A stretch of 64,000 nucleotides of DNA, from positions 62,001 to 126,000 of the forward strand of contig JAGOAJ010000005.1 in the NCBI GenBank assembly GCA_017983955.1. Direction: 5' to 3'. Origin of the DNA: Burkholderiaceae bacterium (GTDB lineage: Bacteria; Pseudomonadota; Gammaproteobacteria; Burkholderiales; Burkholderiaceae_B). The notes under the pieces were generated by a model. The model did no database searches, was not told the origin of the DNA, and worked only from the letters and a program-made list of their open reading frames with translations. Shown here one piece after another: positions 34,972 to 51,556 of this stretch; positions within the stretch are counted from its first letter, which is position 1, and each line of letters starts with the position of its first letter. The position numbers and the translations under genes were made by a program.

Positions 34972-35676
34972 TTACGACACCGATAGATAACGATGCTGGA
35001 TTTCGATATTATTGGCAAGGTCTTGGCTGGTTGATTCATGCACTATCGTGCCCTTTTCCAAGATATACGCCCGACTGGCATGTTTGAGCGCGAAATGCAC
35101 GCTTTGATCGGTAAACAAGATAGTGGTGGTTTTTGATAATTGGTCTATCAGCTCGCCAATTTGCTTGACGATAACCGGCGCGAGGCCTTCGTTGGGCTCA
35201 TCGAGTAAAAGCAATAAAGGCTCGCTCATGAGCGACCGGGCAACGGCCAGCATTTGCTGCTGCCCACCCGACAGTGTGCTGCCATCCTGGTTGGCCAGCT
35301 CGGCAAGCATGGGGTATTCGTCGAAAATCCGTTCTATGCTCCAGTGCCGACTGATCCCCGGCCTGGTGTATTGGGCGATTTCAAGGTTTTCCCGAACGCT
35401 AAGGCCAGGGAATATTCGCCGGTCTTCAGGCACCAGCCCTATACCCTGGCGGGCTATGCGGTAAGCCGGCTGGCCAGCAATATCTTGACCGTTAAAGACC
35501 ACGCGGCCCTTGCTGGGCGCAGACCACCCGATAATGCTACGCAAGGTGGTGCTTTTACCCGCACCATTGCGGCCCAGCAAGCACACCACTTCGCCCTTGT
35601 CTAGCTTAAGCGAAACCCCTTGCAAAGCGTGGCTTTCATCATAGTAGGTATGTATATTATCGACTTCAAGCATCAT
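34972..35676 (-). CDS. livF: branched-chain amino acid-type ABC transporter ATPase (system 1)
   Basis: LivF-type ATPase, 234 residues. Walker A GRNGAGKSTT, signature LSGGQQQMLAVARSL and Walker B LLLLDEPNEGLAP are present. It is the last gene of a five-gene importer and overlaps livG by four bases. The family imports leucine-like amino acids but also aromatic acids, urea and amides. The neighbouring acyl-CoA ligase hints at a carboxylic acid. Confidence 0.92.
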   Translation of the reverse strand: MMLEVDNIHTYYDESHALQGVSLKLDKGEVVCLLGRNGAGKSTTLRSIIGWSAPSKGRVVFNGQDIAGQPAYRIARQGIGLVPEDRRIFPGLSVRENLEIAQYTRPGISRHWSIERIFDEYPMLAELANQDGSTLSGGQQQMLAVARSLMSEPLLLLLDEPNEGLAPVIVKQIGELIDQLSKTTTILFTDQSVHFALKHASRAYILEKGTIVHESTSQDLANNIEIQHRYLSVS

Positions 35677-36443
35677 GGCGTGATTTCCTCTGCGGCATCG
35701 CCCAGATAGGCACGTCTGACTTCGGGATTGACCTTGACTTCTTGCGGCGTTCCCAGCACCAACGTCTGACCACGATGCATGACCAGGATGCGGTCGGCCA
35801 CATCAAATACCACTCCCATATCGTGCTCGGTGATCAGGAAAGTGTAGTCGCCGCTGGACGCCAGCGACTTGATTAAGCTGGTGACCCTGTGGGTTTCATC
35901 GGGCGTCATGCCTGCCGTGGGTTCGTCAAGCAAGACCAGATGGGGTCGCGTCGCCAGCACCATGGCAATTTCTACCAGGCGCTTATCGCCATAGCTGATC
36001 ACCCCTGCCCTGCGCCCGGCCAGATCACCCAAGGCAAGGCGTTCAAGCAAGGTGTCGGCTTCTTGCTGAATAGGCCGATTACGCGAAGCGATGTTGGCCC
36101 AGCGCCGGCTTTGGCCATGGTAGGCAGTAAGCGCGACTTCGATATTTTCGCGTACGCTCATTTCGTTGAAGATATTATTGATTTGAAATGAACGCGATAT
36201 TCCCAGCCGGCTGATACGGTGCTGCGGCAAGCCGGTTATGTCGCGCCCTTCAAAAAGGATGTTCCCTTCGGTGGGCACCATGCGCCCCGACAGCAAGTTG
36301 TAAAAAGTGGTTTTACCTGCGCCGTTGGGGCCGATAATAGCCAGCGTTTCGTGTGGCACCACATCGAACGAAATGTTGGATACTGCTGCAACACCGCCAA
36401 AACGTTTACTTAAATTACTTATTTGTAAAATTGGCTGGGTCAT
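35673..36443 (-). CDS. livG: branched-chain amino acid-type ABC transporter ATPase (system 1)
   Basis: LivG-type ATPase, 256 residues, partner of LivF. Walker A is GPNGAGKTTF and Walker B HLVLLDEPTAGM. The signature region is ISYGDKRLVEIAMVLA in place of canonical LSGGQ, as usual for LivG. The C-terminus has the long LivG extension. Both ends overlap neighbouring genes by four bases, indicating translational coupling. Confidence 0.92.
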   Translation of the reverse strand: MTQPILQISNLSKRFGGVAAVSNISFDVVPHETLAIIGPNGAGKTTFYNLLSGRMVPTEGNILFEGRDITGLPQHRISRLGISRSFQINNIFNEMSVRENIEVALTAYHGQSRRWANIASRNRPIQQEADTLLERLALGDLAGRRAGVISYGDKRLVEIAMVLATRPHLVLLDEPTAGMTPDETHRVTSLIKSLASSGDYTFLITEHDMGVVFDVADRILVMHRGQTLVLGTPQEVKVNPEVRRAYLGDAAEEITP

Positions 36444-37384
36444 TTGCGCTCCTGCAGGCGGTCAAGAAACGTGCCCAGCACCCCGCGCCGGAAAAACATC
36501 ACCATCAAGGCCAGAATAATACCCAGCACCAGCATCCAGGAGTGTGTCATGCTGGTAATCCAGGTTTCCAGCAATACAAACATGCCTGCGCCAAAAAAAG
36601 GCCCAAGAAAATACCCGGTACCGCCCAATATGGACATTAATATCGGTTCGGCCGACATGGACCAATGCACTAGCTCGGGGCTGGCGATACGCAGAAACGG
36701 CGCCATCAGCCCACCAGCCAAGCCAGCAAACGCCCCCGAAATGGTAAACGCCGCCAGCCGGTAACTTTTGACGTTCAAGCCACAAAAAGCCACACGTTCA
36801 GGATTTTGCCTGATGGCACGCAAAATAAGGCCAAAAGATGAACGACAGATCAGGTACAAAATGGCGGTAGCAAGCAGCACGATAACCAGCACGACATAAT
36901 AGTAAACACTGGGGTTGCCCAGGACCAGATCAAAGCCCAAGCCCAGCGACCCCATCTGGAAGCCTGCTATGCCGTCGCTACCGTTGGTCACCGAGCGCCA
37001 CTGATGCACCACCGCAAAAACCATCATGCCAAAAGCCAGTGTCAGCATGGAAAAATACACTTCATTTAATCTGACACTGAAAAAGCCGATGATTAGCGCA
37101 AGTACGGCCCCCGCCACAACCGCCACCAACAAGCAGGCCAGCAACGGCCATTGCATGCTGCTTAACAGCATGGCTGTAGCATAGGCCCCGACGCCGTAAA
37201 ACGCCGCATGTCCAAAGCTGAGCATGCCGGTATAGCCAAAAACAAGGTTGAAGCTGGCCGCAAACAGGCCCAGTATCAAGATTTCAGTGGCGATGAAAAT
37301 ATAAAAATACGGCGTGATCCACGGCAAAGCCAACAAAGCGGCCACTATCACCAGCAATGCCAAAGGCGTCAGATAGTTTTTCAT
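36440..37384 (-). CDS. livM: branched-chain amino acid-type ABC transporter permease (system 1)
   Basis: LivM-type inner-membrane permease, 314 residues with 8-10 hydrophobic segments. The family block NLVFGYTGMLSFGHAAFYGVGAY lies near residue 45 and the coupling region RAIRQNPERVAFCGLNVKSYR in the C-terminal half. It overlaps livH and livG by four bases each. Confidence 0.93.
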   Translation of the reverse strand: MKNYLTPLALLVIVAALLALPWITPYFYIFIATEILILGLFAASFNLVFGYTGMLSFGHAAFYGVGAYATAMLLSSMQWPLLACLLVAVVAGAVLALIIGFFSVRLNEVYFSMLTLAFGMMVFAVVHQWRSVTNGSDGIAGFQMGSLGLGFDLVLGNPSVYYYVVLVIVLLATAILYLICRSSFGLILRAIRQNPERVAFCGLNVKSYRLAAFTISGAFAGLAGGLMAPFLRIASPELVHWSMSAEPILMSILGGTGYFLGPFFGAGMFVLLETWITSMTHSWMLVLGIILALMVMFFRRGVLGTFLDRLQERK

Positions 37385-38253
37385 GATGTTGCCTTTTTAC
37401 CCATCAGTCCGTGCGGCTTGATCAGCAACACAATCGCCATGCCCAAAAAAGGCAGAATCAGGTTTACCTCGGGAAAGAAGCGTCCGCCAAAGCCGTAGAT
37501 CAAGCCCAGCACGATGGCGCCCAGAAAAGTGCCAGGAAAGCTGCCCAAGCCGCCTATGACCACGACGATAAAGCTTTCGATAATGATTTTGTCGCCCATA
37601 CCGGGATCTATGGCGCGCATGGGCGCCGCAATCACGCCCCCTACCGCCGCCAGCCACGCCCCAAAGGCAAACACCCCGGTGATGACCAGTTTAGTGTTGA
37701 TACAAAGCGCCTGTGCCATTTCGCGGTCAAGCGCTGCAGCGCGCATAATTTTCCCGACTCGCGTGCGATTGAACAGCAGCCATAGCGCACACACAACGAT
37801 CAAGCCGACAATGACCACAAAGAGACTGTAGATGGGATACGTAATACCCCCAGGCAAGGTGGCCGTGCCTTGCAACAAGACTGGAGGATCTATAACGTAT
37901 ATACCCGTACCCCAGATCAAGCGCACGGATTCATTCAAAATCAGCAATAAGGCGAACGTAAGCAGCAGGCTGTCGGAGATTTCGCGCTGATAAATAAAGC
38001 GCAACATAAGTCGGTCGATAAGTACCGCCAGAGCCGCCACCCCCAAAGGCGCAATCAACAAGGTCAGCCAGAACGACATCCCCAGCATGATCATGCAGGT
38101 ATACGCCAGATACGCACCCAGCATATATAGCGCACCATGGGCGAAGTTAATGACGTTGAGCACGCCAAAGACTATGTTCAGCCCAACGGCAATAATAAAC
38201 AGCAACAGCCCGATATCCAGGCTATTGAGCAACGCCATTCCCAAACTGCTCAT
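37381..38253 (-). CDS. livH: branched-chain amino acid-type ABC transporter permease (system 1)
   Basis: LivH-type permease, 290 residues. I chose the ATG at 38253 (MSSLGMALL) behind a GGGGG ribosome site; a longer frame to 38310 lacks one. Family features are GLNIVFGVLNVINFAHGALYMLGAY near the N-terminus and the RAAALDREMAQALCINTKLV loop. It pairs with LivM to form the channel. Confidence 0.93.
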   Translation of the reverse strand: MSSLGMALLNSLDIGLLLFIIAVGLNIVFGVLNVINFAHGALYMLGAYLAYTCMIMLGMSFWLTLLIAPLGVAALAVLIDRLMLRFIYQREISDSLLLTFALLLILNESVRLIWGTGIYVIDPPVLLQGTATLPGGITYPIYSLFVVIVGLIVVCALWLLFNRTRVGKIMRAAALDREMAQALCINTKLVITGVFAFGAWLAAVGGVIAAPMRAIDPGMGDKIIIESFIVVVIGGLGSFPGTFLGAIVLGLIYGFGGRFFPEVNLILPFLGMAIVLLIKPHGLMGKKATS

Positions 38254-38334
38254 GATGCCCCCTTTATTATTCGTAGTCCCTCTGGCAAGCAGGTGCCAGA
38301 GGGTTACCACATCTTTTCGAAGAACCTGAACCGG

Positions 38335-39555
38335 CTACAGCTTGCAAGCAGGATCAACGGGCGGAGTGATTTTCTCGCCGTCAAAGAACTGCACTTCGGT
38401 TAGCGAGCGAATTTTGTCCTTGGCATTCATGGCCGCTGTTTTTCCCCAGGTGGGGCCTATCAGGGCCTGGTTGTCGCCTGTGCGAAAGGTCAGGGTTCCG
38501 GTGGGCGCGGGAATGCTTAACCCGGAAAGCGCCTTGGCTACTGCCTTGCCATCAGTATTGCCTGCCTTTTCCATGGCTGCCTTGATGGCGTACACAGCCA
38601 CATAGCCCCCTTCGGCGTTATAGCTGGGTGGCGTGCCATAGTTTTTTTCGTAGGACGCAACAAACTTTTTGTTCAGGTCGTTGTCGTGAGCGTCATACCA
38701 GTAACGGGTGCCCAGCCATACGCCTTCGGGCATCTGGTCGCCCAGCGCCGCAAGCACTTCAGTGGCCGCCCCCACAGTTAGCAACACTTCGAAGCCTTGC
38801 TTGAAGAATCCACGGTTATTGGCTTGGCGTATGAAGTTGACCAAGTCGCCGCCCCACAAGGAAATTAGTACGCCATCGGGCTTGGATTCCATAACCCCAT
38901 TAATAAAGGGGGTGAAGTCTTCAGCGCCAAAGCGAGGAAAGGCGGTTTCGGTCATGAGCACGGCATCGGGCGATTTTTCTTTCAGATATTTACTGAAGAA
39001 TTCCCAGGACTGGTGACCGAAGGCGTAGTCCGGACCTATGGTCGTCCACTTCTTGGCGCCGGTTTTGGCTGCGATGGCTGCCGCACCCTCCATGTTCTGA
39101 TGCACATTGACGCTGACCCGATAGGTATACGAGTTGCATAGCTTGCCGGTGACATCGGGCGTAGCCGCGTGGGTGATAATAAAAGGCTTACCCAATTCGG
39201 GCAGCACTGGCACCAAGCCTTGCGCCACACCAGAGCTATCCAGACCCATCAGGACATCGGACTTATCCTGGTAAACCAGCTTACGGGCCGCCTGTATGGC
39301 CACGGCAGCTTTACCCTGACCGTCTTCCAGTGTCAAAGCCAGTTGACGCCCCAAAACGCCGCCTGCGGCATTGATTTCATTCATGGCCAGCTCTATGCCC
39401 TGTTGAGCGAACTTGCCATAAGAGGCCGCGCTGCCCGACATGATGTAGATGGCACCTATGCGTATGGGTTCCTGGGCGGCATGTGCGGGAGCAAGCGTGA
39501 ATGCGCCGGCAATTGCCAATGAAAGTAAAGGCCGTTTAGCGAAGATAGTAAACAT
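38335..39555 (-). CDS. branched-chain amino acid-type ABC transporter substrate-binding protein (system 1)
   Basis: Periplasmic LivK-like binding protein, 406 residues, with a signal peptide ending GAFTLAPAHA. The first mature strand is IRIGAIYIMSGSAASYGKFAQQGIELAMNEINAAGG. It belongs to the longer, amide- or aromatic-acid-binding branch rather than classic leucine-binding LivK. It is the first gene of system 1, with 81 bp to livH. The ligand cannot be deduced from sequence. Confidence 0.92.
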   Translation of the reverse strand: MFTIFAKRPLLSLAIAGAFTLAPAHAAQEPIRIGAIYIMSGSAASYGKFAQQGIELAMNEINAAGGVLGRQLALTLEDGQGKAAVAIQAARKLVYQDKSDVLMGLDSSGVAQGLVPVLPELGKPFIITHAATPDVTGKLCNSYTYRVSVNVHQNMEGAAAIAAKTGAKKWTTIGPDYAFGHQSWEFFSKYLKEKSPDAVLMTETAFPRFGAEDFTPFINGVMESKPDGVLISLWGGDLVNFIRQANNRGFFKQGFEVLLTVGAATEVLAALGDQMPEGVWLGTRYWYDAHDNDLNKKFVASYEKNYGTPPSYNAEGGYVAVYAIKAAMEKAGNTDGKAVAKALSGLSIPAPTGTLTFRTGDNQALIGPTWGKTAAMNAKDKIRSLTEVQFFDGEKITPPVDPACKL

Positions 39556-39685
39556 GGGTGTTTCTCCTTGAGGAACAGTGCGCCGACAGCGTTGTCGGCA
39601 TCGAATCAGGTGTTTCGAGTCTGCATGTTTGCTGCATTGCTTGCCGGATTACCCGCTGCGCGCGTCATCCGATCTAAGAAACGCA

Positions 39686-41317
39686 TCACGGCGGTCGCTC
39701 ACCCGACAAGGTATCCCGCAAAATGTTTTTGCGGATTTTGCCTGTAGACGTTTTAGGCAACTCGCCGAAAACGATATGCTTGGGGGCCTTGAACGACGCC
39801 ATGTGCTTTTTACAGAATGCAATGAACTCTTGTTCGCTGGTCTGTCGCGAACCCTCTTTCAAGGCAATAAACGCACAAGGAACCTCACCCCATTTGTCAT
39901 CCACCATGGCCACTACCGCCGCCTCGAACACCATGGGGTGGCGGTACAAGACCTCTTCGATTTCCTGACTGGAAATATTTTCGCCTCCGGAAATAATGAT
40001 GTCTTTGGAGCGGTCTTTAACTTCAACATAGCCGTCTGGATGCACAACGGCCAGATCACCCGTATGAAACCAACCGTCCTTGAACGCTTCCCGAGTACCT
40101 GCTTCGTTTTTCAAGTAGCCCATCATGAGAGTGTTGCCGCGCAACAGCAATTCGCCCAGGGTAACGCCATCGAAAGGCACATAGCCCTCGCCGTCCAGGC
40201 AGCCCACGCTTACACCATCAATGCCCAACAGGCCCACGCCCTGCCTGGCCATTTTCTGAGCGAGCTCATCGGGCGACAGGTCTTGCCAGCTGTCTTGCCA
40301 TACGCACAAGGCTGATGGTCCGTAGGATTCAGTCAGGCCGTATAAATGCGTAATCTGAAAACCGATTTCTTGTGCACGGCTGATGACCGGACTGGGCGGC
40401 GCTGCCCCACCCAAGGCAAACTGCACTGGCGTCTTCAAGGCCAGCCCCTGTTTATGGAAATCACCCAACAACATATTCAACACAATAGGCGCGCCGCACA
40501 TATGTGTAACCTGGTGCGCGTTGATGCGCTCTAGTACCTGATCGGCCTGGACCTTGCGCAGGCAGACATGGGTTCCGCCCACCGCTGTTACTGCCCAGGG
40601 ATAGCACCAGCCATTACAATGAAACATGGGCAAGGTCCACAAGTAGACCGTATCCGCCGTCATGTTGAAGGCCATGGCGTTGCTAAGCGCAGCCAGGTAG
40701 GCACCGCGATGGTGGTAGACGACGCCCTTGGGATTGCCAGTGGTGCCCGACGTGTAGTTAAGCGCAATGGCGTCCCATTCGTCGGCCACTTTCGTCCAAG
40801 TGTAATTAGGGTCGCCACTGGCCAGCAGGCTTTCATACAGCAAGGTGGAAGACGACTGCGGCGCGTCGCCCAGCCGGGTAATGGCGACTAGCACAGGCGG
40901 CGACGCCATGGCCGCGACTACCTGCCCAACTAGTTCCTCGAATTCGGTGTCGTACAACAAGAGGCGCGATTCACCATGCTCAAGAATAAAAGCCAGCGTG
41001 CCGGCGTCCAAACGCGTGTTCAGGGCATTGAGTACAGCGCCAATCATGGGAACGGAGTAATGGCTTTCCAGCAGTTCATGCGTGTTAAAACACAGCGCTG
41101 ATACCGTATCGCCCGCCCCTATGCCTAATGTATGCAACGCCGAAGCCATGCTGCAGCAGCGACGATACAAATCGCGGTAGCTCAGGACCATGTCGTCGTC
41201 AATGGCGGCGGTCTTGTCTGGAAATATATACGCGGATCGCTGCAACAAACTAACCGGCGTCAAACTAGAGTAATTGGCCGGCTGCTTATCCAGGCCAAGC
41301 TGATACTTACCGCTCAT
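39686..41317 (-). CDS. AMP-dependent acyl-CoA synthetase
   Basis: Adenylate-forming ligase (ANL superfamily) activating a carboxylic acid to its CoA thioester, 543 residues. The AMP-binding P-loop is NYTSGTTGNPKGVVYHHRG, the core YGLTESYGPSA, and the C-terminal hinge HTGDLAVVHPDGYVEVKDRSKD. The catalytic Lys lies in PKTSTGKIRKNILR near residue 530. The sequence is closest to medium-chain or aryl-acyl ligases. It sits between LIV system 1 and the RidA/hydrolase/diiron operon and could serve either. Confidence 0.92.
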   Translation of the reverse strand: MSGKYQLGLDKQPANYSSLTPVSLLQRSAYIFPDKTAAIDDDMVLSYRDLYRRCCSMASALHTLGIGAGDTVSALCFNTHELLESHYSVPMIGAVLNALNTRLDAGTLAFILEHGESRLLLYDTEFEELVGQVVAAMASPPVLVAITRLGDAPQSSSTLLYESLLASGDPNYTWTKVADEWDAIALNYTSGTTGNPKGVVYHHRGAYLAALSNAMAFNMTADTVYLWTLPMFHCNGWCYPWAVTAVGGTHVCLRKVQADQVLERINAHQVTHMCGAPIVLNMLLGDFHKQGLALKTPVQFALGGAAPPSPVISRAQEIGFQITHLYGLTESYGPSALCVWQDSWQDLSPDELAQKMARQGVGLLGIDGVSVGCLDGEGYVPFDGVTLGELLLRGNTLMMGYLKNEAGTREAFKDGWFHTGDLAVVHPDGYVEVKDRSKDIIISGGENISSQEIEEVLYRHPMVFEAAVVAMVDDKWGEVPCAFIALKEGSRQTSEQEFIAFCKKHMASFKAPKHIVFGELPKTSTGKIRKNILRDTLSGERPP

Positions 41318-41414: not shown

Positions 41415-41807
41415 TTAATTAGCTTTGAACGCTACGGCTTCAACTTCGACCTTCCATTCGGCACGCGCCAAAGCGTTAACAACCACTAACGTGGCCGCCG
41501 GACGCGCGTCCTGAAGGTACTGTAAGCGCACCGGCGCCAGTAAGGGCACATCAGCGGCATCGACTATATAGGTGACGACCTTAACAAGATGCGAGCTATC
41601 CATACCCGCTTCGTTCAGCACATGAATCAGGTTCTGCCAGGCAAGGTCAGCTTGCTCGGAAAAAGACCCGCCCAACAAACCATCCTGGGTCATGCCTATT
41701 TGCCCCGCAATATGCAGCCATGCACCCGAACCCTGGGTCAAAATTCCCTGGCTATAGGGTCCAACAGGCAAACATACTTTTTCAGGGTTCAATATTTTTT
41801 GTGACAT
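41415..41807 (-). CDS. RidA family protein (Rid/YjgF/YER057c)
   Basis: Trimeric enamine/imine hydrolase family, 130 residues. Motifs seen are VGPYSQGIL near residue 15, IAGQIGM, and ARPAATLVVVNALARAEWKVEVEAVAF. The usual catalytic Arg is in DARPAATLV. Eighteen bp separate it from the formamidase-like gene upstream, so it belongs to that operon. Rid proteins in catabolic operons often handle reactive imine intermediates, or hydrolyse aminoacrylate derivatives. It is not the housekeeping RidA by context. Confidence 0.88.
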   Translation of the reverse strand: MSQKILNPEKVCLPVGPYSQGILTQGSGAWLHIAGQIGMTQDGLLGGSFSEQADLAWQNLIHVLNEAGMDSSHLVKVVTYIVDAADVPLLAPVRLQYLQDARPAATLVVVNALARAEWKVEVEAVAFKAN

Positions 41808-41825: not shown

Positions 41826-42716
41826 TTATTTAGACTGAAGCTTGAATAGCTCTAAGACTTTATTAAACAGATGGTTAGACGGGTCAAACATTGCCGAGAA
41901 ATCAGCCAGCAAATCAAAATGATTTCTTTGTGGAACAGTAATATTTTCTATATTATGACCATATTTTTTCAATGCCAAAAAGAAATCTAAGCTTTGATTT
42001 AAAAACCCTGATGTTTCATTGCCACCAGCGGCTAAAACCATAGGAACCTCAAAAAACTCGTCACTGTGGAAGCCAAGATTTTTAGCTTCATTTTTTGACA
42101 TATTAAGATCTAAATTAATGCTAGTTAAAAGCAACGGCTCAAGATCAAACAAAGAACTCAACCCGACATAGCCAATCACTTTATCCTGTAGTTCTGGCAT
42201 AACATTTCTGCATATCATTTTTGCAGCCATATGACCACCAGCAGAATGGCCTGAGATAATAATTTTATTATCATCATAATTCCAGAAATCACCATTTCTG
42301 GATAGCCAGGAAACAGACTCGGCTACCTCAGTCACTATCTCGCTAACTGTCGCTTTAGGCGCCAAGTTATAGTTCGGAATAGCTACAGCTATGCCTCTTG
42401 ATACGTACTCATCTGCAATAAATGAAAAAATACTTTTATCTAAAGCCCGCCAGTAGCCGCCATGAATAAATATCAACAATGGTGATGGTTCGTTTGATTC
42501 AGGAATAAACAAATCAAGCAAGCTTGTCTCGTTTTTACCATAAGGGACATCTAGTTTCGCATAATTTCTGGCACGCGTAATCACGCTTCTTTCTGCATAA
42601 TCACGATATACTTCTGTGCGCTCTGGGTGCCTAATACGCAGATTATATTCAGCCTCAAAGGATGGATCAATAAAATCATCCTGAATGGCATCTATACTAA
42701 AATCAACATTACTCAT
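41826..42716 (-). CDS. alpha/beta hydrolase, arylformamidase (kynurenine formamidase)-like
   Basis: Serine hydrolase of 296 residues. The oxyanion motif HGGYW (85-89) is the hallmark of the eukaryotic-type N-formylkynurenine formamidase family. The nucleophile is S158 in SGHSAGGHMAAK. Near the C-terminus ETSGFLNQSLDFF and NHFDLLADF resemble the acid and His regions of those enzymes, with Glu where Asp is usual. The start at 42716 follows the livF stop by one base, with GGGAG upstream. AT-rich, unlike genes of LIV system 1. Substrate probably an aromatic N-formyl amide or an ester. Confidence 0.72.
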   Translation of the reverse strand: MSNVDFSIDAIQDDFIDPSFEAEYNLRIRHPERTEVYRDYAERSVITRARNYAKLDVPYGKNETSLLDLFIPESNEPSPLLIFIHGGYWRALDKSIFSFIADEYVSRGIAVAIPNYNLAPKATVSEIVTEVAESVSWLSRNGDFWNYDDNKIIISGHSAGGHMAAKMICRNVMPELQDKVIGYVGLSSLFDLEPLLLTSINLDLNMSKNEAKNLGFHSDEFFEVPMVLAAGGNETSGFLNQSLDFFLALKKYGHNIENITVPQRNHFDLLADFSAMFDPSNHLFNKVLELFKLQSK

Positions 42717-42717
42717 T

Positions 42718-43431
42718 TCAAACTCCCAAATAGGCTGATTTAACACGAGAGTCTGCGCGCAAATAGTCTGCTTCCCCAGAAAACAAAACGGTTCCATCTT
42801 GGATTATGTAGCCATAATCAGCGACATTCAATGTTGACATAGCATTCTGTTCAGCGATCAGTAGCGTCAACCCTTCTTTTTGTAAATTTTTTATTGATGA
42901 GAATATATCCTTTACTACCAGGGGCGCTAAACCCATTGATGGCTCATCCAGCATTAAGAATCTGGGACTGCTCATCAAGGCTCGTCCAATAGCCAACATC
43001 TGCTGCTCTCCGCCGGAAAGCGTACCTGCCGCCTGATTAGAACGCTCGGCCAAACGTGGAAAAAGGTTAAGGACGTGGTCCATGTTGCGCCTGAATTCAG
43101 AGTTGCGACGACTACGCAATAAAGAATACCCGCCCATCTCCAGATTATCCTTAACGGATAAAGGGGAGAAAACCCGCCTGCCCTCGGGAACCTGAACAAT
43201 TCCCCTAGCAACAATCTTATCGGGTGACAACGTAGTAATGGACTCACCCTCGAAACGGATCTCTCCGCGGATGGGACGCAATAAACCATTGACGCTACGC
43301 ATCGTTGTGGACTTGCCGGCGCCATTAGCACCTAATAAACAAATGATTTTCCCTAGAGGTACGCGTAACGACAAGCTACGCAGCACATCACCTGCACCAT
43401 AAGAGGCACACAACCCATCGATTTCAAGCAT
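42718..43431 (-). CDS. branched-chain amino acid-type ABC transporter ATPase, LivF-like (system 2)
   Basis: Second LivF-type ATPase, 237 residues. Walker A GANGAGKSTT, signature LSGGEQQMLAIGRAL and Walker B RFLMLDEPSMGLAP are intact. It overlaps the livG-like gene by eight bases. Part of an importer distinct from system 1, embedded in an operon with two ferritin-like proteins and a formamidase-like hydrolase. Confidence 0.92.
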   Translation of the reverse strand: MLEIDGLCASYGAGDVLRSLSLRVPLGKIICLLGANGAGKSTTMRSVNGLLRPIRGEIRFEGESITTLSPDKIVARGIVQVPEGRRVFSPLSVKDNLEMGGYSLLRSRRNSEFRRNMDHVLNLFPRLAERSNQAAGTLSGGEQQMLAIGRALMSSPRFLMLDEPSMGLAPLVVKDIFSSIKNLQKEGLTLLIAEQNAMSTLNVADYGYIIQDGTVLFSGEADYLRADSRVKSAYLGV

Positions 43432-44200
43432 TTTCCGTGTCCTCGCCTAAGTAAGCCTTCAAGACCTCCGGGTCACTACGCATCGCCTGGGCTGTGCCTT
43501 CTCCAATTTTCTTACCGTAATTCAGCACAACGATATCGTCACATAACTGCATAACAAAATTCATATTGTGTTCAACCAATAGAACGCTGATTCCTTCCCG
43601 ATTGATATCCCTGATGACGTCAGAAACATGAGCCACTTCAGCATGAGGAACCCCTGCTACCGGCTCGTCCAGCAACAGCAAGTCGGGACCAGAAGCTAAT
43701 GCACGTGCTATTTCAAGGATTTTTGCTTCACCAAAGCTCAAGTTTTCTGCAATCGTATATGCCTGCTTTGCCAATCCTAAAAGCTCTAGCTTTTCGTAGG
43801 CAATTGCACGTATTTTCTTTTCTTCAGAGCGTTGCAAGGGCGAAGAAAACATTGCGCCCAAAAAACCAGATCGAAAGCGGGAATGACAACCTACCATGAC
43901 GTTTTCCAGCACTGTCAAATTATTAAATATTTGCAGATTTTGAAATGTACGAGCCAAACCAAGATTTACTCGCTGAAAAGAAGGCAGTTTATGAATTTCA
44001 TGATTATTCAGTTTAATAGTGCCAGTCATGGGGGAAAGCACACCCGCTATGATATTAAACATCGTGCTTTTTCCAGCACCGTTAGGTCCTATCAATCCCT
44101 TTATTTCACCTTTTTTCATGTTAAAAGAAAGATCTGACAATGCTGCCAATCCACCAAAGCTTAAGCCGATATTTTTTACTTCTAATATATTATCAACCAT
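43424..44200 (-). CDS. branched-chain amino acid-type ABC transporter ATPase, LivG-like (system 2)
   Basis: Second LivG-type ATPase, 258 residues. Walker A GPNGAGKSTM, Walker B LLLLDEPVAGV and the LivG-type signature LSFGEAKILEIARAL are visible. It overlaps both neighbours by eight bases, indicating coupled translation. Confidence 0.92.
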   Translation of the reverse strand: MVDNILEVKNIGLSFGGLAALSDLSFNMKKGEIKGLIGPNGAGKSTMFNIIAGVLSPMTGTIKLNNHEIHKLPSFQRVNLGLARTFQNLQIFNNLTVLENVMVGCHSRFRSGFLGAMFSSPLQRSEEKKIRAIAYEKLELLGLAKQAYTIAENLSFGEAKILEIARALASGPDLLLLDEPVAGVPHAEVAHVSDVIRDINREGISVLLVEHNMNFVMQLCDDIVVLNYGKKIGEGTAQAMRSDPEVLKAYLGEDTENA

Positions 44201-45203
44201 TTTTTGCCTCTACTTTTTGCAACAGCTCAGAATGATTATTTTTCTTACTTTTTGGAAACCTTATCTTTTTGAAAATCGCTGCAATACCACCTGGATAAAA
44301 CATTAAAACAATAATCATGCTAAAGCCAAATATGAATAGCTCCAGGTCATGAAATGAGCGCAGCAATTCTGGTACTACAGTAAAAACGATCGCGCCGAAA
44401 AATGGGCCCCAGTAACTACCCCAACCTCCTAGTGCGACCATCATTACCAACATCACTGATGTAAAAAACCCAAAGGTTTCTGGCGAGGCAAATTGATTAT
44501 AGTGAGTATATAAAGCACCGGATAATGCCGCTATCGATGCCGACAAAACAAAAACCTTCACCTTCATCATATAGGTATTAACACCTAAGCTGGCTGCCCC
44601 TATTTCACTAGTGGCCACACTAGTCATAGCACGCCCGACTCTGGAGTTAACCAAGTTGAATATTACCCACATAACCAATAGTGATACTGCCCAGGCAACA
44701 TAAAAAAATGATTTATTACTTTCAAATGACAACCCGAAAAGCGTGATCGGGGGTATACCGGATAACCCGTTAGGACCTCCGGTAATGTCCACTAACTCTA
44801 CAAATAATACAGATAAAATGACACCAAATCCAAGTGTTGCCATCGCCAGGTAATGCCCCCTAAGCCTTAAGGTAGGCAGGGCTACTATTAACGATGAAAG
44901 CGCTGCTATGGCCACCGCACTAAACACACCAAAAACCACTGGAAAGCCATACTTAGCGGATATAACACCACTAACATAAGCACCTAAACCAAAAAACCCA
45001 CCGTGACACAAAGATATTTGGCCACAATATCCCATAACCAGGTTCAAACTAGAAATAAGCATAATATTTATGCAAAACATTATTCCTAGACTTGTAATAT
45101 ACCCATTGGGCGAAACCCATGGAAATATCAAAAAAACCAACCACATAAGAAATAGAAGACGTAGCGTGGATTTGTTACCCATCTGCTGATTCATATCGTT
45201 CAT
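44193..45203 (-). CDS. branched-chain amino acid-type ABC transporter permease, LivM-like (system 2)
   Basis: LivM-type permease, 336 residues. NLVMGYCGQISLCHGGFFGLGAYV and a cluster of 8-10 hydrophobic segments identify it. The C-terminal 25 residues are highly basic (KKIRFPKSKKNNHS) and unusual in length. Base composition is noticeably AT-rich compared with system 1. Confidence 0.92.
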   Translation of the reverse strand: MNDMNQQMGNKSTLRLLFLMWLVFLIFPWVSPNGYITSLGIMFCINIMLISSLNLVMGYCGQISLCHGGFFGLGAYVSGVISAKYGFPVVFGVFSAVAIAALSSLIVALPTLRLRGHYLAMATLGFGVILSVLFVELVDITGGPNGLSGIPPITLFGLSFESNKSFFYVAWAVSLLVMWVIFNLVNSRVGRAMTSVATSEIGAASLGVNTYMMKVKVFVLSASIAALSGALYTHYNQFASPETFGFFTSVMLVMMVALGGWGSYWGPFFGAIVFTVVPELLRSFHDLELFIFGFSMIIVLMFYPGGIAAIFKKIRFPKSKKNNHSELLQKVEAKNG

Positions 45204-45262: not shown

Positions 45263-46147
45263 TCAAACCTTCGTAACGTCTGCTTTTCCTAATATTCCTT
45301 TTGGCCGCAAGAACAACACAAGCAACAGCAAGACAAAAGAGACGGCCTCTTTGAAATGGGATGAAATCAAACCTCCGGCAAGCGACTCGACTATCCCTAA
45401 CAACAGCCCCCCCAGAAGTGCACCATGCAAGCTACCCAAGCCGCCTAACATTGCGGCGCTAAACCCCTTGAATCCCAGCAAAGTGCCTTGGTCAAAAGAA
45501 GTTAATGTCAGCGGCGTAATAGCAACACCGGCCAAACCACCCGCCAGAGCGGCAAAAACAAATGCCCACATTACCGTCCGCTTCACATTGATGCCCACCA
45601 ATGCTGCGGCTTCACGGTCAACTGCAGTAGTTCGCATTGCCTTTCCAAGCAGGGTCTTTTCAAAGAAGAATTGCGTAAACAGCATGAACAACAATGCAAT
45701 GCCAAATACCCATATGCTTTGTGGCTGAATGCTTACATCACCGATAGCAACCGAAGCATCCCCGGATAACGCGGGATAGCCCATGGGCGTTTTCCCCAGC
45801 GTCAGCATCACCAGACTTTTCGTACAAATAGCCAACCCGATACTTAACAAAGTAATTAACATCGGCGTAGGCTTTTTCAACGGATTAATGATCAAACGCT
45901 CAGAGAGCCCTCCGACCATACCCACCACTACGATAGCTATCAAACAAGCAGCCCAAACAGGCAAGGCTTCGGCGGCATAAATTGTTGCCGCAACCATACC
46001 CCCCATCATTACCCATTCACCTTGGGCAAAGTTTATTGAGTCTGTACTTTTAAAGATAACGTTAAAACCTACAGCCACAATGGCATACATGCTGCCAGTC
46101 GTAATGCCTGCTATTAGTAGTTGAAGAACCTGCACTGAGACACTCAT
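45263..46147 (-). CDS. branched-chain amino acid-type ABC transporter permease, LivH-like (system 2)
   Basis: LivH-type permease, 294 residues. Family signature GFNVIFKSTDSINFAQGEWVMMGGM near the N-terminus and RTTAVDREAAALVGINVKRT loop. It lies 59 bp ahead of the LivM-like gene and 35 bp after the ligand-poor ferritin-like gene, on the same strand. Confidence 0.92.
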   Translation of the reverse strand: MSVSVQVLQLLIAGITTGSMYAIVAVGFNVIFKSTDSINFAQGEWVMMGGMVAATIYAAEALPVWAACLIAIVVVGMVGGLSERLIINPLKKPTPMLITLLSIGLAICTKSLVMLTLGKTPMGYPALSGDASVAIGDVSIQPQSIWVFGIALLFMLFTQFFFEKTLLGKAMRTTAVDREAAALVGINVKRTVMWAFVFAALAGGLAGVAITPLTLTSFDQGTLLGFKGFSAAMLGGLGSLHGALLGGLLLGIVESLAGGLISSHFKEAVSFVLLLLVLFLRPKGILGKADVTKV

Positions 46148-46182: not shown

Positions 46183-47088
46183 TTAAAGTGTTCCTAATTC
46201 AGGATGAGTCAACTCAGCCAAGGGGATACCAATATTCCTTAGGTCTTCTCGCAGCTGGGTAATGTAGGTTTTAAAGACCACTGCCTCAGTTGCCTGCGTA
46301 ACAGCACCTAAACCAGCCTTTGCTGTAATGTCAGCAGCTTGCGCTTCCTGCCCCTGAGGATCGCCAAGCCAAGCACAGTGATAGCCATTTAGCTCTATGT
46401 CTTGTAAATAGCTATGCACGCCACTCCCGACCGCCACACATTGCTCTGGGCTCCATTGCGCAGCGCGCTTAGTCATATATAACCAGGCAAAGCTCACATT
46501 TCGTTGCTTTGCTTTGACGCTTTTCGTTAGAATTTGCTTCGCTACTGGTTCAGTAGTGCCAGCCAAATAAGCTTCAAAAAGTGCCAACTCCAGGCCGTCC
46601 TCGGCAACGGAATAAACCGCAAACAAAACATCCACATTCTGTTCTGCGTCTAATACGTGGCGATGACGATATTGATTAAAAATTTTCTCGGTGGCCGCTA
46701 AGGGGGAACTGTCTACGTAACCACCCAGAGCCTGGGCATAGCGGTGATAACAGTCAATTTGCCATGCCTCTTCTGTATTACGAACCGTCAGAAAGTACTT
46801 AGGGTCTGCCTCACGGCCCAACTCTAAACACAACCTAACCAACAGTGCTGGGGTTTCACACAGACCTGCGTACTCGACCCAGGCCCGACGACTCCAGGTC
46901 AACCGGGCAGCCTCTAGTATGTCTGCGTCGTATTTGCCAAGATCCAACGTCTTCCAAAGTATGTCTACCTCTGGATTCCAGCGCTCTTGTTTGCCGCAGT
47001 CATAAAGCTCGCGTATAGGCGTAATAGTCTCTGTCAGGCTGACTGGGAAACGGCGTTCATCTAGTATTTTTGTTGTCGTTGCTTGCAC
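46183..47088 (-). CDS. ferritin-like protein with degenerate diiron site (paralogue of the next gene)
   Basis: A 301-residue all-helical protein clearly homologous to its neighbour at 47102-48031: shared blocks are W-x-P-x-VDI near residue 40, WSRRAWVEYAGL at about 65-76, IELNGYHCAWL and AGLGA near the C-terminus. The metal ligands are mostly replaced. The first ExxH has become EAWQ (His to Gln110), and the second ExxH has become KQRN (Glu to Lys194, His to Asn197). It is therefore probably non-catalytic and may pair with the intact protein. Start is GTG at 47088 behind GGAG. I cannot name the function. Confidence 0.75.
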   Translation of the reverse strand: MQATTTKILDERRFPVSLTETITPIRELYDCGKQERWNPEVDILWKTLDLGKYDADILEAARLTWSRRAWVEYAGLCETPALLVRLCLELGREADPKYFLTVRNTEEAWQIDCYHRYAQALGGYVDSSPLAATEKIFNQYRHRHVLDAEQNVDVLFAVYSVAEDGLELALFEAYLAGTTEPVAKQILTKSVKAKQRNVSFAWLYMTKRAAQWSPEQCVAVGSGVHSYLQDIELNGYHCAWLGDPQGQEAQAADITAKAGLGAVTQATEAVVFKTYITQLREDLRNIGIPLAELTHPELGTL

Positions 47089-47101
47089 GGTTTGCTCCTA
47101 G

Positions 47102-48031
47102 TTAAAACTTACCAATTTTTGGATGAGAAAAAATGGGAAGATTTACGCCCCAAGGTTCCATCTGACGCCTGATCCGCTGAACCGTGCTTACAAATATAGG
47201 CTTCTCCAGTTCCTCTACGGTGGCACCTAATCCTGCCTCCCAGGTAATGCGATCAACATCCATTTCAGCTTGAGATGCAGGATTGCTTGGGGCCAACCAA
47301 GGGCTGTGGTAACCGTTCAACTCAACCTTTTCCATCATTGATATAACGGCATCCTCTACTTGTTGAATTTCCTGCTTCGACATTTGAGGAATACGATAGT
47401 CAAGATAGCGCCAACCGAATGCGCAATGCCTAACCTCGTCGCGCATAATATGAGTACAAATTTGCTTGGCAACAGGATCTGGGGTTATATCAACCAGATG
47501 TCGAAATACATCAAAAGCGATTTCTTCAGCAGCGCACACCAAAGCAGCCAAAATTGCTTCGATGGACATATAGGGGTCTAGCGCCATCTTACGAACACCA
47601 TGCGTGGCAACAGAACCTTGAAAACCGGATTGCACAGGCTGCTCCATATAGCCGCCCAACAACTCAGCCATACGCACGCAAACCTCGGCATGTCGACTTT
47701 CCTCTTGCGTACGAATAGCAAAAAATAGCGGTAAATCAGGTGGGCAATCATCGTGGCAAAAGCGAATTTGAAGGATGGGGCTTTCTGCTAAAGCACCATA
47801 CTCACTCCATGCACGCCGACTCCAGTATTGCCTACCGGCATAACGCTGCTCTTCGGTGTATTTTGAAATATCAAATGCAGCCCAATCAATATCAACCCTT
47901 GGGTCCCACTGTTTGATAGTAGCCAATTGATATAGGTCACGAATTTTTGGTATGCGGACACCCAAATCTAATGGAAAGAAAGGTTTCTCGGTATCTAAAA
48001 TTGTTCTTGGATGCTCAATTACTGCGCTCAT
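47102..48031 (-). CDS. ferritin-like diiron oxygenase-type protein, function unknown
   Basis: A 309-residue protein of the ferritin/ribonucleotide-reductase-R2-like superfamily. A full ligand set is visible: E77 in WSEY, E111 and H114 in EESRH, E170 (or E169) in CAAEE, E199 and H202 in DEVRH. This E, ExxH, E, ExxH order is that of diiron oxygenases and N-oxygenases. No transmembrane or signal segment, so it is cytoplasmic. It sits just after a substrate-binding protein gene and ahead of a degenerate paralogue, importer and hydrolase genes. An oxygenase acting on the imported compound is inferred. The reaction is unknown. Confidence 0.78.
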   Translation of the reverse strand: MSAVIEHPRTILDTEKPFFPLDLGVRIPKIRDLYQLATIKQWDPRVDIDWAAFDISKYTEEQRYAGRQYWSRRAWSEYGALAESPILQIRFCHDDCPPDLPLFFAIRTQEESRHAEVCVRMAELLGGYMEQPVQSGFQGSVATHGVRKMALDPYMSIEAILAALVCAAEEIAFDVFRHLVDITPDPVAKQICTHIMRDEVRHCAFGWRYLDYRIPQMSKQEIQQVEDAVISMMEKVELNGYHSPWLAPSNPASQAEMDVDRITWEAGLGATVEELEKPIFVSTVQRIRRQMEPWGVNLPIFSHPKIGKF

Positions 48032-48078: not shown

Positions 48079-49251
48079 TTAATAATCTTCCAGGCGAAAC
48101 TCACCATCTTGATATTTCAACATTACGATATCGCTTTTGGATAGTCCAGAATGTCGTTCTTTAGAAAAGTTAAAGACTCCACCCAAGCCTTTATAATTAG
48201 TTAATTGGCTTAGCTCTTGACTAACTTTCGTTTTATTAGCATTGGATTTTTCCACGGCTGTTCGTGCCAACATGATTGCATCATAGGTTTGCGCAACATA
48301 CTGATTAGGCTTACGGCCATACTTCTCTTCAAAACGCGCACTTAGTTTCTGTATTGTTTGCTTAATCGGATCAGCATCCGGCAAGTCATTGGCTACTGGA
48401 AACTTTACACTGACTAAGACCAAATCTTTTACAGAGCTTCCTGCTAACTTCATATATCTATGATCCACAAATCCATAACTATGGATTAGCGTAAGGTCGC
48501 CTAATCCAAGCTGATCTGCCTGCTTTATAAAAACAACACCGGCCGGCGTCACTGTCCAGCAAATAATTGCCTTCGCCCCACTATTTTTTATATTTGTCAG
48601 TTGCGGAGTAAGATCCGTATCTGCAGGGTTGAATGACTCGTATATAAATTCAAAATTTCTTTCTGCAGCCAGTTTTTTTGCTTGCTCTACAGCACTTTGA
48701 CCAAAACCGCTACTATCTGCCAAAAGGGCAACCTTGTTTATTCCTTTTTTCTCTAGATAATCAAGAACCCTATTAATAACTTGGTCGTCATCAACTGTAC
48801 TTTTAAAAACATTCTGTCGGCTTTCAACAGGATTTATTATCTGCATGCTTCCTTCAGTTGAAATAAAAGGAATTTCTGCTCTTTCAATAATTGGTGCCAT
48901 GGCCATAGCAATGCCACTCATATTTCCGCCGCCAACCATTATGTCAACGCCATCTTGAGACAAAAGGCGTCGTGTCGCGTTAATTGCTTTTGCTGTTTGA
49001 CTTTCGGCATCGTAAAATGTCCACTTGACATTCTCACCAAGGATGCCACCCGAGGCATTAATGTCCTCTATGGCCATTTCCATGCCTGCCTTCATATCTT
49101 CGCCTAAAAAGGCACCGGGACCTGTTAATGACAAAATAGATCCTATATGAGTAGGCTTTGCCTGCGCCACCTGGACAGAACCGAACATGACCCCTGCAGA
49201 TACAACACAAGCAGTCATTAAATTTGTATATTTATTTTTTATCCAAAGCAT
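48079..49251 (-). CDS. branched-chain amino acid-type ABC transporter substrate-binding protein (system 2)
   Basis: Periplasmic binding protein, 390 residues. The signal peptide reads MLWIKNKYTNLMTACVVSAG and ends about AQA; then IGSILSLTGPGAFLGEDMKAGMEMAIEDIN. I chose the ATG at 49251 because GGAGA lies at the right distance; a start four codons upstream is possible. It is the first gene of the operon downstream of the GntR gene and belongs to the LIV transport family. AT-rich. Ligand unknown. Confidence 0.9.
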   Translation of the reverse strand: MLWIKNKYTNLMTACVVSAGVMFGSVQVAQAKPTHIGSILSLTGPGAFLGEDMKAGMEMAIEDINASGGILGENVKWTFYDAESQTAKAINATRRLLSQDGVDIMVGGGNMSGIAMAMAPIIERAEIPFISTEGSMQIINPVESRQNVFKSTVDDDQVINRVLDYLEKKGINKVALLADSSGFGQSAVEQAKKLAAERNFEFIYESFNPADTDLTPQLTNIKNSGAKAIICWTVTPAGVVFIKQADQLGLGDLTLIHSYGFVDHRYMKLAGSSVKDLVLVSVKFPVANDLPDADPIKQTIQKLSARFEEKYGRKPNQYVAQTYDAIMLARTAVEKSNANKTKVSQELSQLTNYKGLGGVFNFSKERHSGLSKSDIVMLKYQDGEFRLEDY

Positions 49252-49279
49252 GTTTATCTCCAAATATTAATTTAATTAT

Positions 49280-50122
49280 TTATACAGCACGAATTACTTG
49301 CTTTTTGAATTCCAACTTATCAGTTATTTTATTTTCTGCAACACTATTTTCACTTAACGGAACATGAATCGAGTACCTAACTTGATCAGACCTGTAATAT
49401 GATGTTCCAGACATTACCGGTCTGTTTTCCACATCGTAATAAATCAAACTTCTTCGCAATATAGGATCACCGGTAATAAGGTCAAGATAGTCAGCATGCT
49501 CAACCTGAACAGCAGCAGCCTCTACCGTCAGCTTTCCATAGGACAAATCAATATGATTATTCATCAGCCCAAGCAATGAGCCCGCCGAAACTTGTTTTTT
49601 ACTCAATGAATCTATTATTTTTACTGGGATGAAACGGTAATCTATAGAAATAGGAACTTGTTTTACTTTTCGCAGCCGAATAATGCTCCAGACCAGTTCA
49701 TCGCTTTGCAGTTGCAGCTCTTCGGACACATGCACAGGACAGGGCTGTTTTACACAGGCCAGTACCTTAAGCTTCAGCAATTGACCGGCATCCGCCCACT
49801 GATCAACAAAGTCCTTAGTCAAGCTAAACCGTTCTTCAACTTTCTTTCCGCACACGAAAGTACCCGAGCCGCGGGCACGCCTTAAGTACCCCCCATCCAC
49901 CAACTCCTGAACAGCCTGCCGCACTGTCATGCGGCTGACACCAAAATATTCGCTAAGCTCCTGGTCTGTGTAGAAGCGATCACTCGCGTCTTTCCAATTA
50001 AGCACAACCGAAAGAAGACGGCGCTTTACCTGTTCGTACAAAGGCAAAGGCGATTGACGATCCAACGTAATAATTTGCTTATGCATAGACCCCTCGCCAT
50101 CCATGTGTTTGACTTGATCCAT
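49280..50122 (-). CDS. GntR-family transcriptional regulator (HutC/UTRA subfamily)
   Basis: Regulator of 280 residues at most. The winged helix is TDQELSEYFGVSRMTVRQAVQELVDGGYLRRARGSGTFV (split at residues about 55-95), followed by a UTRA effector domain. The true start may be 50086, where GAGGGG precedes MHKQIITLD, rather than 50122. It lies 28 bp ahead of the binding-protein gene on the same strand and is divergent from the 451-residue gene. It probably represses both units until an operon substrate or product binds. Confidence 0.9.
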   Translation of the reverse strand: MDQVKHMDGEGSMHKQIITLDRQSPLPLYEQVKRRLLSVVLNWKDASDRFYTDQELSEYFGVSRMTVRQAVQELVDGGYLRRARGSGTFVCGKKVEERFSLTKDFVDQWADAGQLLKLKVLACVKQPCPVHVSEELQLQSDELVWSIIRLRKVKQVPISIDYRFIPVKIIDSLSKKQVSAGSLLGLMNNHIDLSYGKLTVEAAAVQVEHADYLDLITGDPILRRSLIYYDVENRPVMSGTSYYRSDQVRYSIHVPLSENSVAENKITDKLEFKKQVIRAV

Positions 50123-50200: not shown

Positions 50201-51556
50201 GTGAACATTGCGACCATAGGCTTGGCCCATCACTGCCTAACGCCCCCATCAATTTTGCAGCTTTCGTTCATGGAACCGGCAGAGCTAGGGGATATCGATA
50301 CAGTTGTCTGGAACATAGAGGCCTTACTACCAGCTATTCAAAATGACCTAGAACAAACCAACCCTAAGGTTTTAAGCGTCAAGGGATCCGAACAGCTTTT
50401 AGCCAAGTCACGTCACTGGAGGTATCAGTTTGAAAAGCTGCTGCTAAAAGGCGGCACTATCATTGCTTTTTTGCCTCCTGCTGAAGAAATAGGCATACAT
50501 ACACTGCAAGAAATAATGCCCTACGAGCTGCTGGAACCTTTACCGTCAGTAAGGCTAGAGACCTTCCCTATAGAAGGCGCCTTACTTAGCTGCACCGCCG
50601 GTGAACCCTTTCGCTCACTGTTCGAAAGCATTAGTCCGCTGCTTATGCCTATTGTTGCTTTGAACAATCATCCAGGAACATCCATCCTGCATGACACAGA
50701 AGGACAGGTTCTGGCCTGCTACCACGCACTAACACCAGGGCGAATTATTTTTCTTCCAGCCCTAAACCAATCAATGTGGGCCGAAGGCACGCTCTGCTCC
50801 GAGTTTTTCACCTCTGTGCAGCGCTGCATAGAGCGGTTTGGCCAAACCGTTGGGATAAGCAATGCACGATGGTTAAATGATTACGCTCTTGATGCTGAAC
50901 AAGCTCTTTTTCTTGAACGATCAGCATCCATTCGAAAGCTGGGACTATTACAAGAACAAATACAAAACATAGAAGTAAAGATTAGTCAGCAAAGCTTCTT
51001 TAAGCAGCTTATTGGCGGCGAAGGACCCGGTGTCTACACTGCCGTTGCCGAACTATTTCGTCGCCAAGGGGCATTTGTTCAATCAGACTGGATTTCTGAC
51101 AAGCTATTAATTGTGGAGCTTACTGATAGCTACCTGGCAGTACAAATGCGACTGGCTGACGAACCCATCGACCAGGACTACCTAAAAAACCTAGGCAGCG
51201 CGCAAGCCAGGATCAGCGATTATTTTGGTCGTCCAGTAAAGATACTGGTGGCTGACTTCTCACAAAATGGCCTTGCACTGCCTGATCGCAGGCCCCTAAA
51301 AGACGAATCACAGAAAACTCAACAGCATGGTTTTTTATTTATTGAAGGGTCTCAGCTTTATGGATGGCATCTGGAGCCAGAAAAACAAGGTATTGATCGC
51401 TGGGTAAGTCGCCTTCGCGAACACGACTCAAGCTACACCGAACAGCTATCAGCCATTGTGAAATTCAATTTAGTACCCGCTAAGGTTTTAGCTCCGCACC
51501 TAACAGCCAAGACGAGTCACCACACTATGCCCGCCTACGATACTTTTGAACGATAG
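50201..51556 (+). CDS. protein of unknown function with a degenerate restriction-endonuclease-like C-terminal domain
   Basis: A 451-residue cytoplasmic protein starting at GTG 50201 behind AAGGAG. I do not recognise it as a whole. Residues 1-220 look like an alpha/beta domain of the ThuA or glutamine-amidotransferase type (LLLKGGTIIAFLPP at about 80-93). A short coiled coil follows (240-265). Then LIGGEGPGVYTAVAELFRRQG and SDKLLIVELTDSYLAVQM (299-316) have the shape of a PD-(D/E)xK nuclease fold. There D300 is kept, but the E-x-K positions are Val and Met, so it should be inactive. Divergent from gntR and likely co-regulated with the diiron operon. Confidence 0.6.
   Translation: MNIATIGLAHHCLTPPSILQLSFMEPAELGDIDTVVWNIEALLPAIQNDLEQTNPKVLSVKGSEQLLAKSRHWRYQFEKLLLKGGTIIAFLPPAEEIGIHTLQEIMPYELLEPLPSVRLETFPIEGALLSCTAGEPFRSLFESISPLLMPIVALNNHPGTSILHDTEGQVLACYHALTPGRIIFLPALNQSMWAEGTLCSEFFTSVQRCIERFGQTVGISNARWLNDYALDAEQALFLERSASIRKLGLLQEQIQNIEVKISQQSFFKQLIGGEGPGVYTAVAELFRRQGAFVQSDWISDKLLIVELTDSYLAVQMRLADEPIDQDYLKNLGSAQARISDYFGRPVKILVADFSQNGLALPDRRPLKDESQKTQQHGFLFIEGSQLYGWHLEPEKQGIDRWVSRLREHDSSYTEQLSAIVKFNLVPAKVLAPHLTAKTSHHTMPAYDTFER

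Follow-up and report, generated by a model that had tools for sequence, protein, structure and literature searches.

A stretch of 64,000 nucleotides from a Burkholderiaceae bacterium (contig JAGOAJ010000005.1, positions 62,001 to 126,000; hereafter the window) carries two adjoining genes, here called FerA and FerB, which encode paralogous proteins with predicted R2-like (ferritin-like) folds. We consider it somewhat probable that the two proteins make up one two-subunit R2-like dimetal oxygenase, in which FerB is the metal-free partner, and that this enzyme oxidises an imported nitrogen-containing molecule for a hydrolase and a RidA protein of the same operon. The proposal is based on paralogy, predicted fold, loss of ligands in FerB, a lysine present in every aligned FerB, pairing of the genes, correlated evolution, purifying selection and a conserved operon. 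An earlier note on this DNA had proposed a heteromeric oxygenase with a degenerate partner subunit; that interpretation is supported in part, the heteromer itself being a prediction, and the observation behind it is confirmed and is extended here in three respects, namely that the genes are paired across genomes, that the lysine is universal and that purifying selection is at work.

Metal sites of FerA and FerB

FerA and FerB are identical at 97/300 positions (32%) in BLASTP with an expectation value (E) of 2e-53, therefore their resemblance is not due to chance and they are paralogues, as was stated earlier. The FerA alignment covers the window, 28/31 pair loci and 9/13 single loci (both described below), and the six ligands E77, E111, H114, E169, E199 and H202 are invariant in 41/41 aligned FerA-type rows as well as in all 46 rows of the tree set (27 FerA, 3 second-FerA, 10 single and 6 outgroup). 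They follow the pattern E, ExxH, E, ExxH on four helices, each of them sitting in a predicted helix (H60-93, H99-124, H157-182 or H186-216). Five of these ligands had been named correctly in the earlier note; the third glutamate had been given as E170 and is E169, position 170 being variable (V in 3/27 FerA rows and T, Y or G in 10/10 single homologues). The predicted structure of FerA has an R2-like fold along the whole chain, and the 50 best structural matches shown for it are R2, R2lox, VlmB-type and methane monooxygenase proteins, with VlmB tied with R2lox among the top ones.

The AurF family (PF11583) has a curated cut-off of 29.6 bits, and a match to it at E 0.01 or better was found in 39/41 FerA-type rows, two of the 19 FerA relatives looked at exceeding the cut-off (L062 with 33.0 and L069 with 30.7 bits) and the rest being below it or unmatched. 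These border scores, along with the rank of VlmB, point to an AurF/CmlI- or VlmB-type N-oxygenase activity of FerA, which would convert an amine to a hydroxylamine, nitroso, oxime or azoxy product in place of C-H or ring oxidation; we regard this as possible but unlikely. The window FerA reaches only 21.2 bits with AurF, and the FDO N-oxygenases have a seventh histidine four residues before the last glutamate (H225 in Dob3; PMC12154687), where the FerA-type rows have I in 34/41 and V in 7/41 and never His. Because FerA is without this seventh histidine, C-H or ring oxidation would be favoured over N-oxygenation with moderate confidence. Assignment of the window FerA to a known family was tried and rejected, as it falls under every Pfam and NCBIfam cut-off, and the AurF family search of its own genome (3.3 Mb) gave no match; Dirammox DnfA is a candidate relative from the literature only. 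A more distant FerA homologue is present in that genome (G000:C61:22903-23397, 30% identity, E 7.5e-8), which may be a DUF455-type protein; most rows listed for the FerA search in the genomes of the family are equally weak.

FerB is predicted to have an R2-like fold as well. Its alignment holds 28 rows, one for the window copy and 27 drawn from the other 31 pair loci, leaving out L047, L049 and L063 (near copies) and L072 (split FerB); no Pfam or NCBIfam match was found for FerB, and 1/28 rows touches AurF. Compared with the FerA ligands, the window copy has Q110 for H114, D164 for E169, K194 for E199 and N197 for H202, of which the Gln, Lys and Asn had been noticed earlier and the fourth change, D164, had been overlooked. 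Position 194 is K in 28/28 rows, position 164 is D in 24/28 (A in 3, L in 1), position 110 is H in 18/28 (Q in 7, three others), and position 197 is H in 25/28, with N only in the window copy, Q in 1 and M in 1. The Lys thus defines the FerB family, the Gln is common to some relatives and the Asn is private to the window copy. The equivalents of E72 and E107 are E in 25/28 and 26/28 rows, respectively, both Actinomycetota rows being without the latter. A near-fixed FerB-specific change, R113 of FerA to W109 of FerB, adjoins the His ligand position. Judging from its place in the site, K194 should keep metal out of FerB.

FerB may instead be a second enzyme for the step after FerA, either with one metal bound by E72, E107, D164 and the histidines or with a chemical role for K194, such as that of a Schiff base or a general base. 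The residues K194, R196, W65, W70, R85 and Y204 are invariant in 28/28 rows and the purifying selection described below acts on FerB, both of which would suit such a role along with the retention of E107; there is also the precedent of class Ie R2, which is active without metal with its Glu ligands replaced, including by Lys (PMC11846895). We hold this reading to be improbable, since distances within FerB are 2.5 times as large as within FerA and the H114 and Y78 positions vary, which argues against an active site, and since the two Actinomycetota rows have lost E107 too.

Distribution and evolution of the pair

Relatives of FerA were scanned with one genome per species and 45 loci were obtained, comprising 31 of the FerA clade (at least 52% identity), 13 single-gene loci (35-40% identity) and L090, which is in neither group as it lies at a contig end and covers query residues 19-158 only. 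The 33 pair loci are these 31 together with L031 (Paraburkholderia plasmid) and L032 (genome G041). L033, L034 and L035 (stretches of G199, G063 and G050) stand outside this count; the contigs of L034 and L035, equal in length to those of L050 and L051, are already counted under these two handles, and L033 closely resembles counted Achromobacter loci. By their labels the pair loci belong to Alpha-, Beta- and Gammaproteobacteria and Actinomycetota, and the closest named kin of the window FerA are from Achromobacter, Candidimonas and Verticiella (Alcaligenaceae). The co-occurrence of both genes is borne out, with FerB accompanying FerA in 33/33 FerA-clade loci and being the directly next gene in 32.

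In L059 FerA and FerB are separated by a second FerA, and L060 likewise has two FerA copies and one FerB; no Liv genes were found at these two loci, and an EamA transporter lies downstream. In L072 FerA is intact, and the FerB match next to it (L072:10982-11864) is divided between two reading frames, through sequencing error or decay.

Within the family, 5/200 genomes have a close FerA, and in each of them a second copy adjoins it. With FerB as query, 1/398 genomes of the phylum matched, which is the window's own, and 5/399 genomes of the order matched, of which two have the pair and the other three just a single distant homologue. Because the system is rare and patchy, horizontal transfer of the pair is suggested. 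The loci L077 and L088 come from metagenome bins labelled Bordetella parapertussis and hold environmental-type single FerA genes; these labels may be wrong.

For the careful tree, rows were thinned to 71 and then 64. FerB formed one clade (100/100) and so did FerA (100/99), therefore one old duplication is indicated. FerA and FerB were sisters at 95/87, and a grouping of FerA with the single-gene proteins was not rejected (p 0.312), hence the duplication may have come either before or after the single-gene branch. FerA and FerB distances are correlated over 25 loci (r 0.917; 0/2000 permutations as high), the FerB distances being about 2.5 times the FerA distances. The ratio of non-synonymous to synonymous substitution (dN/dS) in 12 close pairs was 0.03-0.20 for FerB and 0.01-0.07 for FerA, and this low value for FerB shows that it is constrained by purifying selection and is not a decaying copy.

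The homodimer is the norm for R2-like proteins, and FerA and FerB could accordingly be separate homodimers, FerA as the oxygenase and FerB as a substrate-binding or regulatory protein that is merely co-transcribed. To this we attach a low probability, as FerA and FerB stay together in 33/33 loci while transporter and hydrolase genes change around them.

Operon and proposed pathway

The features around the pair are given in Table 1.

Table 1. Position and description of the genes around FerA and FerB in the window.
Feature	Position	Strand	Description
FerA	47102-48031	minus	309 amino acids; predicted R2-like (ferritin-like) dimetal oxygenase subunit; six ligands
FerB	46183-47088	minus	301 amino acids, GTG start; FerA paralogue, degenerate site
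Periplasmic binding protein	48079-49263	minus	branched-chain amino acid/amide type (LIV, Peripla_BP_6)
LivH-type permease	45263-46147	minus	
LivM-type permease	44193-45203	minus	
LivG-type ATPase	43424-44200	minus	
LivF, ATP-binding cassette (ABC) ATPase	42718-43431	minus	ABC_tran 98.7 bits; presumed LivF from its operon place
Alpha/beta hydrolase	41826-42716	minus	BD-FAE/Abhydrolase_3; sequence-related to kynurenine formamidase 4e11
RidA-family enamine/imine deaminase	41415-41807	minus	
GntR/UTRA transcriptional regulator	49280-50122	minus	
c8, conserved protein, no family assigned	50201-51556	plus	divergent from GntR

The order of transcription is GntR, binding protein, FerA, FerB, LivH, LivM, LivG, LivF, hydrolase and RidA, with 13 bases between FerA and FerB, and the run is likely one transcript because the intergenic gaps are short or negative. 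A promoter and terminator scan was uninformative (20 and 12 found against 20.2 and 12.9 expected). Homologues of the LivF ATPase occupy the equal place in the operons of relatives. The start of the hydrolase was taken as the internal ATG just after LivF, which is probably the true one, the longest open reading frame (ORF) extending to 42797. The hydrolase matches kynurenine formamidase 4e11 at E 1.2e-22, with better matches to 2pbl (unassigned esterase) and 9n8r (lipase).

Over the 33 pair loci a GntR regulator was found in 26, the binding protein in 25, at least three Liv genes in 25 and RidA in 16. Hydrolases from three unrelated families occur near the pair, with at least one of them in 29/33 loci (alpha/beta 23, creatininase 5, amidase 3, with overlaps; in L052 the creatininase match is fragmented). 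The hydrolase search missed an alpha/beta hydrolase in L068, L073 has an adjoining amidohydrolase and a hydantoinase-B gene several kb off, and the sequence ends 5.4 kb (L065) and 3.6 kb (L071) after FerA. The hydrolase family switches while FerA stays, which suggests an amide in the FerA product. Enamines and imines are the compounds that RidA proteins hydrolyse, so an N-acyl enamine formed by oxidation of a nitrogen-containing molecule would fit RidA together with the hydrolase, with uracil and pyridoxate breakdown as analogies for such a route.

In the proposed mechanism, the LIV-type ABC transporter would import a small nitrogen-containing molecule, and FerA would bind two metal ions, probably iron, through E/ExxH/E/ExxH and activate O2. 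FerB would be a retired paralogue, kept free of metal by K194 in place of the last-helix Glu ligand, and would serve as the structural or regulatory half of a heterodimer, as Rnr4 does for Rnr2. The alpha/beta hydrolase would cleave the amide in the FerA-FerB product, RidA would then hydrolyse the resulting enamine or imine, and the electron donor would be encoded outside the operon. The heteromer, the metal, the direction of the pathway and the nature of the substrate are what we infer from the genes and their arrangement.

Several observations weigh against this proposal. FerB was absent within 1.5 kb at 13/13 loci of 35-40% identity and at 7/7 of 23-27% identity, so that 20/20 homologues outside the clade are without it and the partner is therefore not intrinsic to the fold. 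FerB may still bind some metal, because E72 and E107 are retained and both histidines are kept in most relatives. The mirrored FerA and FerB trees are also expected from co-inheritance in one operon and are no proof of contact. RidA was not found in 17/33 pair loci, some of their contigs ending early; neither a reductase nor a coupling protein was found among the operon proteins scanned, and an MmoC-like reductase match lies near only 1/33 pair loci.

A bolder version of the two-subunit oxygenase would make the Lys in the emptied FerB site chemically active, either as a hold for a carbonyl substrate or intermediate or, as in class Ie R2, in the tuning of a metal-free site, and FerA-FerB would then be a two-site ring-opening oxygenase. 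If true, the FerA half oxidises and the metal-free FerB half processes the same molecule, which would be a new kind of oxygenase; we find this quite doubtful. A ferritin-like role of the pair in handling iron or peroxide, in place of an oxygenase, is very improbable indeed, since the weak Pfam matches of FerA-type rows to rubrerythrin (18/41, best E 2.8e-5) and ferritin (3/41, best E 0.0026) are opposed by an operon with uptake and amide/imine hydrolysis genes, by the kinds of protein among the 50 structural matches shown and by related single proteins adjoining 2Fe-2S reductases.

The single homologues have other surroundings, with a TctC-type receptor at 11/13 and 6/7 of them and a hydrolase of the kinds searched near 16/20 (11/13 and 5/7). 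Some distant ones have a reductase (L044, L098) or a 2Fe-2S protein (L087). At L098:7935-9987 (Variovorax RA8 plasmid) and in L044 the distant single FerA homologue lies beside a 2Fe-2S/FAD reductase, a CoA ligase and a LIV transporter, and these two are likely one-subunit oxygenases of another pathway.

All three Actinomycetota loci (L072, L074 and L086) have a TenA homologue, a creatininase-type hydrolase and a zinc dehydrogenase near the pair, L072 and L086 also having an aldehyde dehydrogenase, and TenA is thiaminase II by NCBIfam in L086; this gene content is hinting at an aminopyrimidine-like substrate in the Actinomycetota versions. TenA lies within 5 kb at only 3/33 pair loci (L065 has a match 8 kb away), therefore thiamine or aminopyrimidine breakdown was rejected for the window. 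Upstream of the actinobacterial pair (L086:8733-9830 and L072:7371 onward) is a conserved protein with no Pfam or NCBIfam match, which by eye we take to be like 2,5-dihydroxypyridine dioxygenase or the M29 peptidases.

A c8 homologue lies upstream of FerA in 12/33 pair loci, from Alcaligenaceae to alphaproteobacterial bins, and no Pfam match was found for c8. Directly downstream of RidA, a LIV-like run at 34972-41317 (minus) holds by ORF reading a binding protein, two permeases and two ATPases with an acyl-CoA synthetase (39686-41317) first; as this synthetase heads the second run, it was dropped as an operon member. Two LIV-type transport operons are thus in tandem within the window.

Comparison with known systems

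The fold and the design principle of an active and an inactive subunit are already known, and no description of the FerA-FerB pair was found in the literature, as judged from titles and abstract openings of the papers listed; the pair itself is so far uncharacterised. Soluble methane and toluene monooxygenase hydroxylases and PaaA/PaaC also combine an active ferritin-like subunit with a metal-less one, and their operons also encode further subunits and a dedicated reductase, in which they differ from FerA-FerB with the gene content given above. R2lox consists of one protein and has a Val-Tyr ether crosslink, its Val being at E69 plus 3, whereas the matching FerA position 80, mapped by register from the first ligand and not by structure overlay, is Ala in 32/41 rows and Gly in 9/41.

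The Dob3 ligands E101, E137, H140, E198, E229 and H232 have a spacing closely like that of FerA (PMC12154687). AurF, CmlI, Dob3 and VlmB share the six ligands and similar spacing with FerA, and a part of the FerA clade is over the AurF cut-off; AurF, CmlI and Dob3 are single proteins of biosynthetic N-oxidation, whereas FerA lacks their seventh His and belongs to an uptake and breakdown operon.

In class Ie R2 the Lys is at the last-helix Glu, as in FerB. The QSK and VPK variants of this class have Lys in place of a metal-binding Glu, and the first described form is metal-free (PMC11846895). Three Glu are replaced there, whereas FerB mostly keeps E72 and E107 and has an Asp in 24/28 rows beside its Lys, and R2e is itself the working subunit.

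A similar design is that of yeast Rnr2 and Rnr4, two paralogues which share an R2-type fold; the inactive Rnr4 has lost ligands and is without metal, and it stabilises the diiron site of the active Rnr2 (PMC2704937). FerB has similarly lost several ligands, the window copy differing at four of the six positions, with one Glu changed to Lys in 28/28 rows and another to Asp in 24/28, and by this analogy a heterodimer is predicted. With the pair, the R2-like superfamily would gain an oxygenase, probably catabolic, that has its own pseudo-enzyme as a partner, and its substrate would define a degradation pathway common to Alpha- and Betaproteobacteria and, in altered form, to Actinomycetota. The single-gene relatives at 35-40% identity, set beside the paired ones, offer a natural series for the control of a diiron site by a metal-less partner.
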